Positions 27 through 8,852 of a stretch of 44,522 nt of DNA are shown in pieces. Numbering within the stretch: the first letter of the stretch is position 1; each line of letters begins with the position of its first letter. The translations under genes and the position numbers were made by a program. Source of the stretch: a virus; the IMG/VR virus record IMGVR_UViG_3300018877_000007, positions 1-44,522 of that record, one strand, 5' to 3'. The notes beneath the pieces are model-generated. The model saw only the letters and a list, made by a program, of their open reading frames with translations, was not told the DNA's origin and searched no databases.

Positions 27-302
27 TTATGCGCATCGACGGCTACGGCGGTTGTTCTCGGAGTACGTCACCGGTTCGAGGTGGTCGGGGTTGACGCACG
101 CGCGGTTGCGGCAGAGGTGGTCGAGCACGAGGCCATCGGGGATCGGGTCGCGGAGGTGTTCCCACATCGCGCGGTGTGCGGTGACGTTGACGCTGTGCCT
201 GCTGATCTGGCCGTAGCCGCCCCACGTCAGGGTTCCTGTCCATCGCCAGCATCCGTTGTGCTCGACGGCGTATCGCGAGGTGAGTCGGTCGGTGTAGGTC
301 AT
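27..302 (-). CDS. HNH endonuclease (short form)
   Basis: 91 residues, predicted to be a DNA-nicking or cutting HNH enzyme. The core shows an N-terminal GCWRWTG block, then DHLCRNRACVNPDHLEP, which contains the two metal-binding His, the central Asn and a Cys pair. It ends soon after this core, unlike the relative at 1602-2039, which adds a second Cys/His cluster. The ATG at 302 follows the stop of the previous HNH-like frame by four bases. It is the last gene of the leftward operon. If the window is circular, the next gene is the small terminase subunit, and HNH proteins commonly neighbour terminases and help cos cleavage in HK97-like phages. That role is inferred. The TAA stop lies at 27-29. 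Confidence 0.82.
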   Translation of the reverse strand: MTYTDRLTSRYAVEHNGCWRWTGTLTWGGYGQISRHSVNVTAHRAMWEHLRDPIPDGLVLDHLCRNRACVNPDHLEPVTYSENNRRSRRCA

Positions 303-306
303 GTGG

Positions 307-663
307 TCACCACTGTCGTGAGTGTGGTTCGGGGGCGTTGGTGCGGCGGGCGGCGGATTGGTTCCCTCGGATCCCACCTTCGGCGCGGTTGCACTCGGGT
401 GCTTCGGGTCCGGTCCAGGTGCTGCGGTCTGGAACGTGCCCCAAGTCCCATCGTCTGGGGTTGACGAGGTGTCCGGGTTGGAGGCAGCGGGTGGAGCGGC
501 AGGTGATGGGTTCGCCGCGGTCGAGTCTGCGTTGCCATCGGGCTCGTTCGGCTTGGTGTCGGCTGCCGTATCCGCGTGCTGTGGTGCCTCCTGGCTTCGG
601 GATGAGGTCACCTGCCGTGGTGGTGTGACACCTGTCTCGGGTGTGAGTTTCGTATATCCGCAG
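307..663 (-). CDS. HNH-like protein without a canonical start codon
   Basis: An open frame reading about 110-118 residues with a convincing HNH-type core: RGYGSRHQAERARW near the start, a Cys pair around TCRSTRC, then WDLGHV and PECNRAEGG, as in small actinophage HNH proteins. I find no ATG, GTG or TTG upstream in this frame before the previous gene (stop at 671-673). The only possible start is CTG at 663-661, with no clear Shine-Dalgarno. It could start at CTG, be reached by a +1 shift from the gene upstream, or be a decayed gene. The competing frame over the same bases is Pro/Ala/Thr-rich and looks like a shadow. Confidence 0.5.
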   Translation of the reverse strand: MRIYETHTRDRCHTTTAGDLIPKPGGTTARGYGSRHQAERARWQRRLDRGEPITCRSTRCLQPGHLVNPRRWDLGHVPDRSTWTGPEAPECNRAEGGIRGNQSAARRTNAPEPHSRQW

Positions 664-670
664 GTCAGCG

Positions 671-1327
671 TCAAGCCGGGTCTGTGGCGGGCGTGTCGTT
701 GCGGAGGTGGTTGGTGAGGGTGGTGAGGGTGCCGTCTGTGTGGGTCCAGGTGGTGGTGCATGTGGTGCAGGTGACGGTGGTGGCGGTGGGGGTGGCGGTG
801 GCGGTGAGGGTGCCGGGGGTGTTGCAGGTGGGGCAGCGTGCGTTGAGGCGGTGGTCGGGGTCGCGCCAGCCTGTGATGATTTCGGCGGTGCGGCGCCAGG
901 CTGCGGTGTCGGTGGCTAGGGCGGTGAGGGTGTCGGGGTCGCAGGTGTGGGCGTAGAGGCCGAGGACGGTGAGGGCGCTTTCGGTGGTGGGTCGGGGGTG
1001 GTGGCCGATGTCGAGTGTCCAGCGGAAGTGGCTGATCCAGTGGCGGGCCATGGTGTCGATGTGGTGGAGGTGGTCGAGGGCTGCGGTTCCGCCGGGGGTG
1101 CGGGATTCGGGTGCGGGCCGGCGGTTGCCGGCGGGTGGTGTGGTTTCGGGGTGGTGGGCGAGGTGACGCAGCTGGTCGAGGAGGGATGGTTGGCGGGTGG
1201 CGTGGGTGGTGAGTTTCCGGTTCCGTTGTTTGGTCCAGGTGAAGACGGGTTCGTTGTGGGTGCGGGGGGTGGTGAGGGCGTGGATGTCGTCGGTGATGCG
1301 GTCGAGGTGGCCGGCGCGGTCGGTCAC
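671..1327 (-). CDS. Zinc-ribbon protein, Thr/His-rich
   Basis: 218 residues from the GTG at 1327, which overlaps the upstream stop as GTGA. The C-terminal quarter has a four-Cys ribbon (CPTCN, then CTTC about 20 residues later) embedded in a Thr-rich sequence. The middle is helical and includes ALDHLHHIDTMARHWISHF. This organisation resembles zinc-ribbon proteins seen in many actinophage early regions, possibly DNA-binding. I cannot assign a function. The original longer open frame to 1408 runs into the upstream gene, so I reject that start. Confidence 0.65.
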   Translation of the reverse strand: MTDRAGHLDRITDDIHALTTPRTHNEPVFTWTKQRNRKLTTHATRQPSLLDQLRHLAHHPETTPPAGNRRPAPESRTPGGTAALDHLHHIDTMARHWISHFRWTLDIGHHPRPTTESALTVLGLYAHTCDPDTLTALATDTAAWRRTAEIITGWRDPDHRLNARCPTCNTPGTLTATATPTATTVTCTTCTTTWTHTDGTLTTLTNHLRNDTPATDPA

Positions 1328-1601: not shown

Positions 1602-2039
1602 TCATCCTCCGTTGCGCTTACGTGCCCTGCGGCGAGCCTTCTCGCAGGTTCGGCAGTGTCGTCTACCCGACGGGCTGACGTACGTGTTCGCGGCGGTGTA
1701 GGCGTGGCCGCGCGGGCAGTGGGTGGTGGCGGCTGCGCGCGCGTTGACCGTGTCGCCTCGGAGGAGGTTCTCCCGGCAGGTCACGGGTTCGAGGTGATCG
1801 GGCCGGCAGCAGGCGCGTACGCGGCAGAGGTGGTCGATCTGGAGGCCGGCCGGGATAGGCCCTACGAACGCCTCGTAGGCGACGCGGTGAGTGGCGCGCG
1901 TGGTGCGGTCGTGCCAGATGCGGGTGTACCCGCCTTCGTTGGTGCCGCGGTTGCTGACCCAACAGGGGCTGGTGTGTCCACGGTCTTCGACCGTGATGCG
2001 GCTGGTGATCCGGCGTTGGGTCTCGGTACGGTCGGGCAT
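1602..2039 (-). CDS. HNH homing-type endonuclease
   Basis: 145 residues with the full domain layout of phage free-standing HNH enzymes: a Trp/Asn-rich N-terminal block (CWVSNRGTNEGGYTRIW), the His-Asn-His core with a Cys pair (DHLCRVRACCRPDHLEP), then a second Cys/His cluster (HCPRGHAY followed by HCRTC) and a basic tail. It probably cuts or nicks DNA. A clear GAGGAG precedes the ATG. It shares the core with the genes at 27-302 and 32279-32842, so this phage carries a small family of these enzymes. Confidence 0.85.
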   Translation of the reverse strand: MPDRTETQRRITSRITVEDRGHTSPCWVSNRGTNEGGYTRIWHDRTTRATHRVAYEAFVGPIPAGLQIDHLCRVRACCRPDHLEPVTCRENLLRGDTVNARAAATTHCPRGHAYTAANTYVSPSGRRHCRTCEKARRRARKRNGG

Positions 2040-4143: not shown

Positions 4144-5760
4144 TCACCCCGGGTCCGCGAACAGGTCACCCTGCGCGGCCGGGACGGCCGGGGCCTTGTC
4201 GTAGCCGAGGACTTTCCGGAGACGTGCGTCGGCGAGGTGCGGTGACGCGGCGAGGCGGCAGTAGTCGGCGGACAGGTCGACGCTGATCCCGGCCCGGCCG
4301 AGCGCGGCGGCGACGTGGGCGGTGGTGCCCGTTCCGCCGAATGGATCGACGATCACGGCGGGGCGGGTGGGTGCGGTGGTGTCGGGGCATGCGCAGGTGT
4401 AGCCGGTGATGGTGTGGAGGGCGCGGTTGGTGACTTGCTGGCCGGGTGCTTCCCCGGGGTTGCGATGGCCGCCGCTGCCGATGGTCTGGCGGGTCCATCC
4501 GTGTTCGCGTTCGACTGTGGTGACTGGCCGGCGTCCGTCGCCGCAGGCGGTGCAGATCCCGGCCGGGGACCATCCGAGGATGAGCCGGCGGGGCCACTCG
4601 GTGGGGAACGCGGCGAAGTGGTCCACGTCGATCCCGGGAACCTTCCGGAGCGGTTCAGTCGCGACGGTCCACACCGACCCGGGGAGCTTGCCAAGCGGGT
4701 CCGGCGTGTAGTCAGCGTTACGAAGCGCACTCGTCTCGCCGAGACCCCGCATCTCCTTAGACGGACTGCGCACCTTCCCCGGCCGTGACCAGTGGGGGTG
4801 CAAGTGCGGCTCCCGGATCTCGTCCACGGCAGCGAAGTACCGGGGCTGCTTGGTCAGGTGCACCCAGTCTTCGTGGGAGCGTCGGACCCGGTCGGTGACG
4901 GACTCGGGCAAACCATTAGGTTTGCTCCAAATTATGACGGATCGGGCGAACAGTCCCAACTGGTCTACGCACGCCACGCGGTAGCGCTCGGGCAGGAGTA
5001 GCAGTGACTTCGGTGGCACCCACCGTGCCTTGAGCGGCAGGTCTGGCAGGGGCAGCAGGGGCGGCTCGTAGTCGTCCGGCGTGCCGCTGTTCCAGTTCAG
5101 CACCGCCGTCCGGATGCGCTCCCTGTGGGCCAGCTCCGTCGGCGTCAGCGCGTTCCATCGCCCCCGGCCGCCGACGGCCGCCTTGCGGCTCTGTAGCTCC
5201 ACCGCGGCCAGCGCTTGCCCTCGCTTGATCTGCAACCACGGCCAGACCCGCGCGAGGACGGCCGACGCCTGCTGAGCGGCAGCGTTCCAGTTCCAGACCC
5301 CGCGCTTGTCCTGGAACACCTGCCCGATGCCGGTCACCTCGCGGATGCGGTGCACCACCTCCGGTCGCATCTGTCCGACGCGAGTCCACGCGGTGTACGA
5401 GGTGCCCTGCTTGTGGACGCTGATCGAGCCGTCGGAGTCCAGCACGCCGGCCAACCACGCGGCGTCCTCGACGGTGAACTCCGAGTCGAGTCGCTGGCCC
5501 TTGGAGAACGAATCACCCAGGTTGACGAAGATCGACCCGGTCGGCTTGAGGACCCGGGTCCACTCCCGGGTGCAGGCGACTAGCGCGGCGATGTACTCGG
5601 CGGGGGTGGGCTCGGCGCCGATCTGCCCGGCGTAGTGCTGCCCGCCGTCGGTGTAGGAGCGGAGCGCGAAGTACGGCGGGGACGTGACGATCAGGTCGAC
5701 CGAGGCGTCTGGGATGGGGAGCCGGCCGGCGTCGCCGCGGATGGTCAGGGGGCGAATCAC
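4144..5760 (-). CDS. DNA methyltransferase with inserted LAGLIDADG-like domain
   Basis: 538 residues, starting GTG at 5760 (GTGA overlap). It is a beta-class N4-cytosine/N6-adenine methyltransferase: the catalytic TSPPYFALRSY lies near residues 26-36 and the AdoMet-binding VDPFGGTGTT near 471-480. IIWSKPNGLPESV (276-288) and a CTAC/CAC Cys cluster lie between. Between LGDSFS (about 81) and PPKSLLLLPERY (about 249) sits an insert of roughly 150 residues with AWLAGVLDSDGSIS at 101-114, close to the LAGLIDADG motif of homing endonucleases. No intein splice residues are evident, so it reads as an in-frame fusion. SPPY favours cytosine-N4 methylation; the target site is unknown. The neighbouring transglycosylase suggests a joint DNA-modification role. 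Confidence 0.85.
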   Translation of the reverse strand: MIRPLTIRGDAGRLPIPDASVDLIVTSPPYFALRSYTDGGQHYAGQIGAEPTPAEYIAALVACTREWTRVLKPTGSIFVNLGDSFSKGQRLDSEFTVEDAAWLAGVLDSDGSISVHKQGTSYTAWTRVGQMRPEVVHRIREVTGIGQVFQDKRGVWNWNAAAQQASAVLARVWPWLQIKRGQALAAVELQSRKAAVGGRGRWNALTPTELAHRERIRTAVLNWNSGTPDDYEPPLLPLPDLPLKARWVPPKSLLLLPERYRVACVDQLGLFARSVIIWSKPNGLPESVTDRVRRSHEDWVHLTKQPRYFAAVDEIREPHLHPHWSRPGKVRSPSKEMRGLGETSALRNADYTPDPLGKLPGSVWTVATEPLRKVPGIDVDHFAAFPTEWPRRLILGWSPAGICTACGDGRRPVTTVEREHGWTRQTIGSGGHRNPGEAPGQQVTNRALHTITGYTCACPDTTAPTRPAVIVDPFGGTGTTAHVAAALGRAGISVDLSADYCRLAASPHLADARLRKVLGYDKAPAVPAAQGDLFADPG

Positions 5761-6422
5761 GAGTCCTCCAGCGGCAGTACGGGAACGGCGGCGAGGGCGT
5801 CGAGCCACCCGAGGAGCTTGGGCAGGTTCACGTCGGGCCCGTACCGCAGGTAGGTGCCGTCGGCGGAGTGGCAGCCCAGTCGGGCGGCGCGTTGCAGCCG
5901 TTTGAGGGAGTTCACCCGGCCCATGTGGACCCATTTCCCGGCGTCGCGGGCGCGGACGGCGACGCGGTGTGCGGCGGGGCCGAGTTTCCAGGTGTCGTCG
6001 CCGGCGAGGAACGCGCAGTCGAACGCGTCCCACGGGATGTTGGGGTCGTGTTCGGCGCCGTTCTGCATGGCGAACGCGGCGGGGTAGCCGAGGTCGCGGA
6101 CGCGTTCGGCCCATGGGAGGGCGCGGGTGAGGGTGGCGTCATGGTCGCAGACGACGTCGGGGAGGACCGCGAAGAGGTTCCGGGGCGCGGCGCCGATGTG
6201 GCGCTCGAGGTAGGTCAGCCACCCGGTTTCGGACCAGTGGGGGTTGGCCCGGGGGACGGGGCTGTCGATGCCTTGTGCGACGCAGCCGTTGTCCGCGGCC
6301 CACCATCCGGCGTCCGGCGGCGGGTTCGACCCGGGCTGGGAGATGTAGCCGAGGCCGGGGCCGTGGAGGGGTGGGGTGGCGCGGACGAGGTCGAGGGCGG
6401 CGGCGGGGCGGGTGCCGGTCAT
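5757..6422 (-). CDS. dpdA-like: DpdA/TGT-like transglycosylase
   Basis: 221 residues from the ATG at 6422, which overlaps the upstream stop as ATGA (an ATG at 6434 is also in frame). Proteins of this tRNA-guanine-transglycosylase relative exchange guanine for a 7-deazaguanine. In phages the DpdA branch does so in DNA. Supporting motifs are FAVLPDVVCDHDAT (candidate nucleophilic Asp region), PAAFAMQNG, FLAGDDTWKLG and GKWVHMGRVNSLKR, which resemble actinophage proteins annotated as queuine tRNA-ribosyltransferase or DpdA. It is smaller than bacterial TGT (about 370 residues). No preQ0 synthesis genes are present, but a precursor transporter lies two genes upstream. A tRNA substrate is the main alternative. 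Confidence 0.72.
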   Translation of the reverse strand: MTGTRPAAALDLVRATPPLHGPGLGYISQPGSNPPPDAGWWAADNGCVAQGIDSPVPRANPHWSETGWLTYLERHIGAAPRNLFAVLPDVVCDHDATLTRALPWAERVRDLGYPAAFAMQNGAEHDPNIPWDAFDCAFLAGDDTWKLGPAAHRVAVRARDAGKWVHMGRVNSLKRLQRAARLGCHSADGTYLRYGPDVNLPKLLGWLDALAAVPVLPLEDS

Positions 6423-6628
6423 GAGGTAGAGCATTCGGGGCCGTCCATCTGGGGGGTGTGGACGATGGCGGTCGGGTCGAGTCGTCGCTGTAGGCCGAAC
6501 AACTGGTGTTGCGCGTAGGAGTGGCCGTAGACGGCCCTGTCGGCCTGCAGGTCGGCGAGGAGGACGGGGCAGTCCGGCTGGTGCCAGTCGCCTTCGCAGT
6601 CGTCGGCGCAGTTCGGGTCGCGGGTCAT
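6419..6628 (-). CDS. Small Cys-rich protein in the modification block
   Basis: 69 residues with an N-terminal Cys cluster (CADDCEGDWHQPDC) that could bind a metal, followed by a helix (LLADLQADRAVYGHSYAQHQLF). It overlaps both neighbours by four bases (ATGA), between the transporter and the transglycosylase. Such tight coupling suggests co-expression with them. No family recognised. Confidence 0.6.
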   Translation of the reverse strand: MTRDPNCADDCEGDWHQPDCPVLLADLQADRAVYGHSYAQHQLFGLQRRLDPTAIVHTPQMDGPECSTS

Positions 6629-7161
6629 GCCCGGGCCCGCCTGTCCTCGTCTTCCGTCCGGGCCGCGGCGGCGGACCCGACGGTGAGGGCCCAGATGGCG
6701 GCGGTGGCCCACGTCTTCCCGAGCATCTGCCCGGCGACGCCGGCGGGGGTGGTGGGGAACCCGGCGATCCACAGGAAGAGGAGGGTGTCGAGGGGCGCGG
6801 CGGCGGCGAATGACGCCCACACGGCGACGGTCCACCCGCGGTCGCGGAGGGCGGTGTAGACGGTGAGGTCGAGGAGTTCGGCGAGGCAGAACGCGACGGC
6901 GGAGGCGGCGGCGATCCGGCCGTCGCCGTAGGCGGCTGAGAGCGCGGTGCCGGCGGCGATGCAGGCGAGCGTCGCCGGCCGGCCGGCGACGTTCTGGATG
7001 GTGTCGCGGATGGTGAGGACGGCGCCGGCGGCGTAGACGCCGGCGGTGGCGGCGAGCCCGAACCCGACGGGGGTGAGGCCGTAGCGGCTGGTGAGGACGT
7101 TCGCGAGGGCGATGAGGGCGACGTAGAGGGCGGCGGCGGGGAACGCGCGGGCGCGGGTCAC
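6625..7161 (-). CDS. yhhQ-like: VUT/YhhQ-family queuosine-precursor transporter
   Basis: 178 residues with about five to six hydrophobic spans. Family features are LYVALIALANVLTSRYG at the N-terminus, PVGFGLAATAGVYAAGAVLTIRD, AVAFCLAELLDLTVYTAL, a DTLLFLWIAGF span and GQMLGKTWAT near the end. These match the VUT (YhhQ) family, inner-membrane transporters that import preQ0/preQ1. In a phage lacking deazaguanine synthesis this would supply the base used by the DpdA-like enzyme at 5757-6422. It starts GTG at 7161 (GTGA overlap) and ends in an ATGA overlap with the next gene. Confidence 0.82.
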   Translation of the reverse strand: MTRARAFPAAALYVALIALANVLTSRYGLTPVGFGLAATAGVYAAGAVLTIRDTIQNVAGRPATLACIAAGTALSAAYGDGRIAAASAVAFCLAELLDLTVYTALRDRGWTVAVWASFAAAAPLDTLLFLWIAGFPTTPAGVAGQMLGKTWATAAIWALTVGSAAAARTEDEDRRARA

Positions 7162-7725: not shown

Positions 7726-8175
7726 TCACGGGCTGTTCGTGAAGTCGGGGCCGGGCTGCCTGGAGTTCATCTCGGCGGTCTCCAACCAGGCGGTGGCCTG
7801 GGGGGTCGGCGGTGGGCGCATGTCGGGGGTGAGGGTGGCTTCGGCGCCGGGTGGGTCGTCGGTGGGGCGGTCGCGTTCGAGGAGGGCGTGGAGGGTGCCG
7901 TCGGGGGTGAATTGGGCGGTGTGGACCCGCCACCCCATGGCGGCGAGCCGGCCCACGGAGGCGATGCTGTAAACGGTCTGGTACTCCATGGGGGGCCACC
8001 CGGTGAGCTCGACGACCTCCCCGATGGGGCGGGGGTGCCGGGTCAGGACGTCGTCAAGGACCGCCTGTATCGCGGCGCGGCGGGCGGTGGCGGGGGCCTC
8101 GGTCGACATGTAGGAGTCGTTGTACGTACGGACGAAACGAACGATGTCGTCGTCGGTGACGGTGTAGCCGGTCAT
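7726..8175 (-). CDS. Hypothetical protein
   Basis: 149 residues. The N-terminal two-thirds (DDDIVRFVRTYNDSYM, then AIQAVLDDVLTRHPRPIGEVVELTG) is helical. The C-terminus is Pro/Glu-rich and probably disordered. No family recognised. The start overlaps the upstream stop (ATGA). The segment around 8125-8145 carries a GTACGTACGGACGAA stretch reminiscent of the repeats at 3386-3420. Confidence 0.6.
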   Translation of the reverse strand: MTGYTVTDDDIVRFVRTYNDSYMSTEAPATARRAAIQAVLDDVLTRHPRPIGEVVELTGWPPMEYQTVYSIASVGRLAAMGWRVHTAQFTPDGTLHALLERDRPTDDPPGAEATLTPDMRPPPTPQATAWLETAEMNSRQPGPDFTNSP

Positions 8176-8852
8176 GACGGGTCCGGGACGGCGGTGAGGC
8201 CGGTCGCGAACGTGGCGGCCGGCACCCGGGCCGGCGCGGGTGCCGCGGCAGCGTCCTCCATGGCGAGCGTGACGTGCTCGGTCTCCGCCGAGCGCTCACC
8301 GTGCTGGTCGTCGTCGGCCGCAGCCTGGTCTTCCATGGCGAGGACGAACTCACGGATGAGCTCCGGGGCGGCGTCCCGCCACGTCGGGACGTCCCCGAGC
8401 TGGTGCCCGGCGAAGTACGTCGTCCACGCCGTGGTGAGGCCGGCGTCGTCGAGGTCCGCGGCGGCCTGCCAGTCCCTGAGCTCGGTCATGGCCTGGTCGG
8501 CGCGGGCGGCGGACCCGTCGTCGTCGAAGGGGATCGGGTTGTCCCCGGTGCGCTCCGCCCTCAGCGCGACGATCAGGTCTTGCATGGTGCCGGCCGGGCC
8601 GACGAGGTCGAGCATCTTCGTCAGGTGCCGGTCGTCGAGGACTTCGAGGGCGCGGACCTTGACGACGGCGGTTTCCGCGCCGTCCTGGTCGTCGTCCTCG
8701 ACGAGCCGGGTGCGGGTGAGGCGGACGAGAGCGTAGACGGGGCTGGGGTCGACGCTGAGGAGGCTTCCGCTGCGGCTTTCCAGGTTGGACAGGTTGCCGT
8801 CGGGGAGTCCGCCGGCGAGGCGGACGGTGGGGCGGGTGAGGCGGTCGGACAT
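8172..8852 (-). CDS. Hypothetical early protein
   Basis: 226 residues starting MSDRLTRPTVRLAGG at an ATG with GGAG upstream. The N-terminal half is beta-rich and includes VYALVRLTRTRLVED and AVVKVRALEVLDD, like a small barrel. The C-terminal half is acidic and Ala-rich. Proteins of this layout occur in actinophage recombination regions, but I cannot name the family. Confidence 0.6.
   Translation of the reverse strand: MSDRLTRPTVRLAGGLPDGNLSNLESRSGSLLSVDPSPVYALVRLTRTRLVEDDDQDGAETAVVKVRALEVLDDRHLTKMLDLVGPAGTMQDLIVALRAERTGDNPIPFDDDGSAARADQAMTELRDWQAAADLDDAGLTTAWTTYFAGHQLGDVPTWRDAAPELIREFVLAMEDQAAADDDQHGERSAETEHVTLAMEDAAAAPAPARVPAATFATGLTAVPDPS

Follow-up and report, generated by a model that had tools for sequence, protein, structure and literature searches.

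The viral DNA stretch analysed here (44,522 nt; hereafter, the window) encodes a transporter of the VUT/YhhQ family closely linked to a compact protein of the tRNA-guanine transglycosylase (TGT)/DpdA superfamily. The comparative evidence strongly supports the reading given in the original prediction, namely that this pair constitutes a salvage-fed 7-deazaguanine DNA modification module, and, with preQ0 as the most likely base, we assign it a probability of about 0.7. According to the proposed mechanism, a 7-deazaguanine base, for which preQ0 is the most likely candidate, would enter the cell from outside through VUT in the host membrane. The compact DpdA would then exchange guanine in phage DNA for the imported base by TGT-type chemistry, and the DNA altered in this way should resist some restriction enzymes. 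Resistance of dPreQ0-containing DNA to some nucleases has been measured in phages Rosebush and CAjan (PMC6884629).

The window is a phage contig, possibly incomplete, with a GC content of 71.9%. Its distant nucleotide relatives are phages of Gordonia, Rhodococcus and Mycobacterium, and an actinobacterial host is therefore likely. On the minus strand, the VUT gene, which has a GTG start codon, is followed by a 69-aa ORF, the DpdA-like gene and a methyltransferase gene (Table 1), the neighbors being joined by overlaps of 4–16 nt. The first three ORFs were all found as predicted, and their third-position GC (0.97, 0.88 and 0.92, respectively) is strongly coding-like. The methyltransferase gene does follow the DpdA-like gene, with a GTGA overlap. 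ATGA coupling, which had been proposed for both junctions of the 69-aa ORF, was found at that with VUT; at the DpdA-like gene, it gives way to a 16-nt overlap after correction of the start codon. In accordance with the claim that synthesis genes are lacking here, QueC, QueD, QueE and FolE were undetectable in the window, as were a QueF-like protein and a second DpdA. A search of the window and of eight relatives for a preQ1 riboswitch or any other Rfam RNA gave no match. Two HNH_3 endonuclease genes lie close to the left end of the window.

Table 1. Positions of the genes of the VUT–DpdA string and of related features in other loci.
Feature	Sequence	Position	Strand	Basis or context
VUT/COG1738-family transporter (YhhQ-like), 178 aa, proposed 7-deazaguanine importer	Window	6625–7161	−	Pfam Vut_1
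69-aa Cys-containing ORF, probably lineage-specific	Window	6419–6628	−	ORF and coding-like GC3
Compact protein with DpdA/TGT fold, 225 aa, putative 7-deazaguanine DNA transglycosylase	Window	5757–6434 (probable start)	−	PHROG 15826, AF2, Foldseek, hhalign
N6/N4 DNA methyltransferase with endonuclease-like insert	Window	4144–5760	−	Pfam N6_N4_Mtase, PHROG 67, PHROG 5046
HNH_3 endonuclease	Window	27–761	−	
HNH_3 endonuclease	Window	1602–2039	−	
QueF-like protein	L003 (Arthrobacter phage Aoka)	5604–5933		Between VUT and small DpdA
QueF-like protein	L019	5702–6037		Between VUT and small DpdA
QueF-like protein	L026	5614–5934		Between VUT and small DpdA
QueF-like protein	L039	5702–6037		Between VUT and small DpdA
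CPxD...HSGIK protein	L042	6823–7068		Downstream of DpdA
CPxD...HSGIK protein	L071	2105–2374		Beside the pair
CPxD...HSGIK protein	L091	5657–5902		Beside the pair
Small DpdA of a bacterial genome	L010 (Nonomuraea sp. SYSU D8015)	7923–8570		Near a large relaxase-like ORF

Assignment of the transporter to the VUT/YhhQ family was borne out by the Pfam Vut_1 model (35.6 bits; cut-off, 27.2) and by conservation of the invariant residues of the family. Like the known YhhQ/VUT (COG1738) queuosine-precursor transporters, it is a multi-helix membrane protein; it differs from them in being phage-encoded, in adjoining a DpdA gene, and in scoring below the curated equivalog cut-offs, both for the queuosine precursor transporter TIGR00697 (32.4 bits; cut-off, 50.95) and for the preQ0/preQ1 equivalog PRK11212 (27.3 bits; cut-off, 252).

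The gene for the DpdA-like protein and its TGT/DpdA class stand as predicted, except that its start is probably at 6434 rather than 6422. Relatives of the protein begin with MLYFANP or MLYLANP and the in-frame ATG at 6434 yields MLYLMTG, giving a 225-aa product and the overlap mentioned above, whereas the ATG at 6422 would produce an ATGA overlap with the 69-aa ORF. Counted from the 6434 start, the first strand of the AlphaFold2 (AF2) model falls at residues 2–5. The protein matches PHROG 15826 (E-value, 4e-54) and has at least 559 relatives in the viral collection. No Pfam or NCBIfam model was matched by the protein of the window, the DpdA models PF23859 and NF041059 included; since DpdA of phage 9g likewise lacks a Pfam match, such models cover just a part of the superfamily. 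Searches of PDB sequences with the single sequence or a 13-sequence profile returned nothing meaningful.

Profile comparison with hhalign connected the small DpdA to the 9g DpdA family (E-value, 2.2e-4 with 3 sequences and 9e-4 with 80 sequences) along 133–137 collinear columns. The D-x-G motif of the small protein is paired there with its 9g counterpart, as are D93, the GG region and H170. The last of these is equivalent to histidine 196 of 9g, which is conserved in DpdA (Hutinet 2019; PMC6884629). Compared with the score of 32.8, the maximum among 150 column-shuffled profiles was 27.0, and a reversed profile and QueE scored 15.2 and 20.7, respectively. Residues D48, D93, Q124, G145, H170 and D192, among others, are invariant in 64 relatives; by motif reading rather than superposition, D48, D93, Q124, G145 and D192 may correspond to the TGT motifs DSGGFQ, FDEC, IVQG, GG and G-x-D-x-x-D, respectively, and Asp192 is probably the nucleophile. 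A homology bridge is provided by the gene adjoining VUT in Rhizobium phage RHph_N3_2, which matches both PHROG 887 (7e-51), labelled as queuine tRNA-ribosyltransferase, and PHROG 15826 (7e-5).

Structure prediction and fold comparison, proposed along with the original prediction, agreed with this placement. The AlphaFold2 model built from 64 sequences had a pLDDT of 91.2 and a pTM of 0.89, and its top Foldseek matches in the PDB were almost all TGTs (E-value, 1.7e-4; probability, 1.00; TM by query, 0.52), fold TM-scores being merely about 0.5. Among viral models, the second and third matches were queuine tRNA-ribosyltransferases. Based on the sequence, the model and the fold search, the small DpdA is a member of the TGT/DpdA superfamily that is nearer to phage DpdA than to tRNA TGT.

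Since this fold is that of tRNA TGTs and, in bacteria, proteins of the VUT family supply the queuosine of tRNA (PMC5372724), the small protein might instead place the imported base into host or phage tRNA and thereby tune translation. This is very improbable given that the profile comparison prefers phage DpdA, with no hhalign match to 26 tRNA TGTs and no match to Pfam TGT (PF01702) in the record. Further, the core of about 200 residues has no room for the zinc/tRNA-binding domain of TGTs, a conserved cysteine triad was not found among the relatives, and the window has no tRNA gene. According to PMC6884629, mycobacteria, the hosts of the related phage GreaseLightnin and its kin, have no queuosine pathway, the GreaseLightnin host M. 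smegmatis included. A small DpdA is also carried by a Nonomuraea strain, and a TGT match was obtained in 87 of 149 genomes from the phylum to which this strain belongs, so the use of host tRNA is conceivable for other hosts. DNA is, in sum, the likelier target of the small DpdA. In Nonomuraea sp. SYSU D8015 itself, no VUT or TGT match was found anywhere in the genome.

Association of the small DpdA with a supply of precursor was examined in 70 loci selected by this protein and thinned at 85% identity. VUT was adjacent in 50 of them, QueC, QueD or QueE in 10, both in none (0/70), and neither in the remaining 10; near these last loci, no membrane protein with three or more predicted helices was found as a substitute. 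When shadow reading frames are set aside, none of the other credible neighbor families exceeded 8/70 loci. The same picture was obtained for 50 whole records: QueC was present in 9 of them and VUT in 33, and none had both (Fisher p, 1e-5). Some of these records are fragments, making the absences soft. A maximum-likelihood tree was built for the small DpdA, with a bootstrap that is not fully settled. The synthesis state requires 9 changes on it, of which at least 6 are forced by branches with good support, and loci with the importer occur as sisters of loci with synthesis genes (e.g., L036/L085 and L019/L005). The importer and the synthesis genes have thus been swapped repeatedly on this tree.

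The larger DpdA of PHROG 887 is also encoded in 4 of the 9 QueC-positive records, for example, that of Arthrobacter phage Sonali, and the small DpdA might therefore have a different job. It could be a pathway accessory, such as a partner subunit or a nucleoside hydrolase that frees the base, which we regard as quite unlikely. The PHROG 887 DpdA is missing from the other 5 QueC-positive records and from all QueC-negative ones (0/41), leaving the small protein as the sole candidate found there; in addition, the TGT-like motif positions are invariant, and other DpdA types replace the small protein at the same place beside VUT. QueC, the small DpdA and the larger PHROG 887 DpdA occur together in Sonali (L005), Vibrio phage R29Z (L013), L043 and L068.

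That replacement became apparent in the converse test, in which viral contigs were scanned with VUT alone. A DpdA-type ORF was located within 3 kb of VUT in 78 of the 80 loci obtained (57/59 without near-copies), comprising 41 small DpdAs, 26 of the RHph_N3_2/Pam5 type, 10 PF23859-like and 1 of the 9g type. By comparison, the small DpdA is rare among phage records as a whole (21 of 50,697). One of the two exceptions (L229) has an ORF containing DSGAF directly before VUT, with a weak score (E-value, 4e-4), and in the other (L291) the contig ends close to VUT. Among phages without the small DpdA, Sinorhizobium phage phiLM21 carries a Pfam DpdA (PF23859; 148.7 bits) beside VUT, and Rhizobium phage RHph_N3_2 and Pseudanabaena phage Pam5 carry a PHROG 887 DpdA there (~1e-50). 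The VUT gene of the unverified record MT837598 is surrounded by bacterial-looking genes. These linkage data point in the opposite direction to the statement that phage YhhQ is uncorrelated with any phage group (Hutinet 2019; PMC6884629). The importer and the synthesis genes do not exclude each other strictly, as QueC was also present in five of the VUT-selected contigs. Three of these (L276, L277 and L279) have the small DpdA, VUT and QueC together and apparently represent one lineage.

The 69-aa protein had been put forward as a new component of the system. This part of the prediction was not upheld: relatives of the protein were found in none of the phage, plasmid and viral contig collections searched, and the slot between VUT and DpdA is empty in most related loci. 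The ORF is probably lineage-specific rather than a conserved component. In Arthrobacter phage Aoka, L019, L026 and L039, the same slot is occupied by QueF-like T-fold proteins of 106–111 aa, three of the four exceeding the Pfam QueF cut-off, to which the 69-aa protein shows no similarity. Their presence suggests a tailoring step in these relatives, in which imported preQ0 would be converted to preQ1 or G+. A shorter family (81–89 aa) with the pattern CPxD...HSGIK is found beside the pair in three loci (Table 1); it is distantly similar to the QueF-like proteins, with few common positions, and has no Pfam match. Neither kind of protein is present in the window.

These QueF-like genes, implying further conversion in some relatives, bear on the identity of the base. 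The module may be real and the base not preQ0 (preQ1, queuine or another 7-deazaguanine, or one first converted by the host), and substrates do vary among VUT/COG1738 members (PMC11570991). For the window we consider this a minor possibility, given the absence of a QueF-like gene there and the exchange of VUT for QueC in several relatives. QueC is the preQ0-forming enzyme.

The methyltransferase downstream of the pair was identified by Pfam N6_N4_Mtase (107.9 bits) and PHROG 67. An insert at residues 99–224 matches the HNH endonuclease PHROG 5046 (E-value, 2e-10) and contains a LAGLIDADG-like motif, LAGVLDSDG; it is apparently in frame and has no recognised intein ends. Near the small DpdA, no methyltransferase family was found in more than 7 of the 70 relatives, and the link of this gene to the VUT–DpdA module is uncertain.

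Several features connect the pair in the window to known phage DpdA systems, such as those of Enterobacteria phage 9g, CAjan and Mycobacterium phage Rosebush (PMC6884629), in which a TGT/DpdA-type transglycosylase is likewise fed a 7-deazaguanine base. The conserved histidine of 9g-type systems is matched in the small DpdA, and QueC, QueD and QueE adjoin it in several relatives. Unlike in these systems, the small-DpdA core comprises only about 200–225 aa, is too distant for the DpdA models of Pfam and NCBIfam, and is accompanied in the window by an importer in place of synthesis genes. With the DpdA-only phages (Orion, Salmonella 7-11; group three of Hutinet 2019), the window shares a DpdA-type gene and the lack of synthesis genes, and a host or exogenous precursor has already been proposed for this group (PMC6884629); the difference is the dedicated transporter gene coupled to the enzyme. 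In Mycobacterium phage Orion, which has DpdA and no precursor genes, no modification was found (PMC6884629), and salvage-fed phages may accordingly look unmodified in ordinary medium.

Direct relatives of the small DpdA (45% identity) are annotated by SEA-PHAGES as 'DpdA-like tRNA-guanine transglycosylase' (GreaseLightnin gp55, Aoka gp40 and Sonali gp81), so the label of the enzyme is not new, while the neighboring transporter is labelled just as a membrane or hypothetical protein. A DpdA subfamily named in the phage 7-deazaguanine papers in Nucleic Acids Research (2023) and MMBR (2024) could cover the small DpdA. No earlier description of the VUT–DpdA pairing was found in the accessible literature and, as far as that literature shows, the system is of a known kind, in which supply by import, and how general this is, represent a new variation.

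Considering the association of the importer with several DpdA types and its repeated swaps with synthesis genes, we lean towards a widespread modular phage salvage route to DNA hypermodification. The module offers a testable answer to the question left open by Hutinet 2019 as to the source of the base in DpdA phages without synthesis genes. Functions can be proposed for PHROG 15826 and PHROG 4899, both labelled 'unknown function', and the small DpdA represents a very small DpdA for biochemistry. If the proposed reading is true, other organisms, through the 7-deazaguanine bases that they release, would determine the extent of phage genome modification, and the restriction resistance of a phage could hinge on a surrounding metabolite, a dependence that standard laboratory media might hide.
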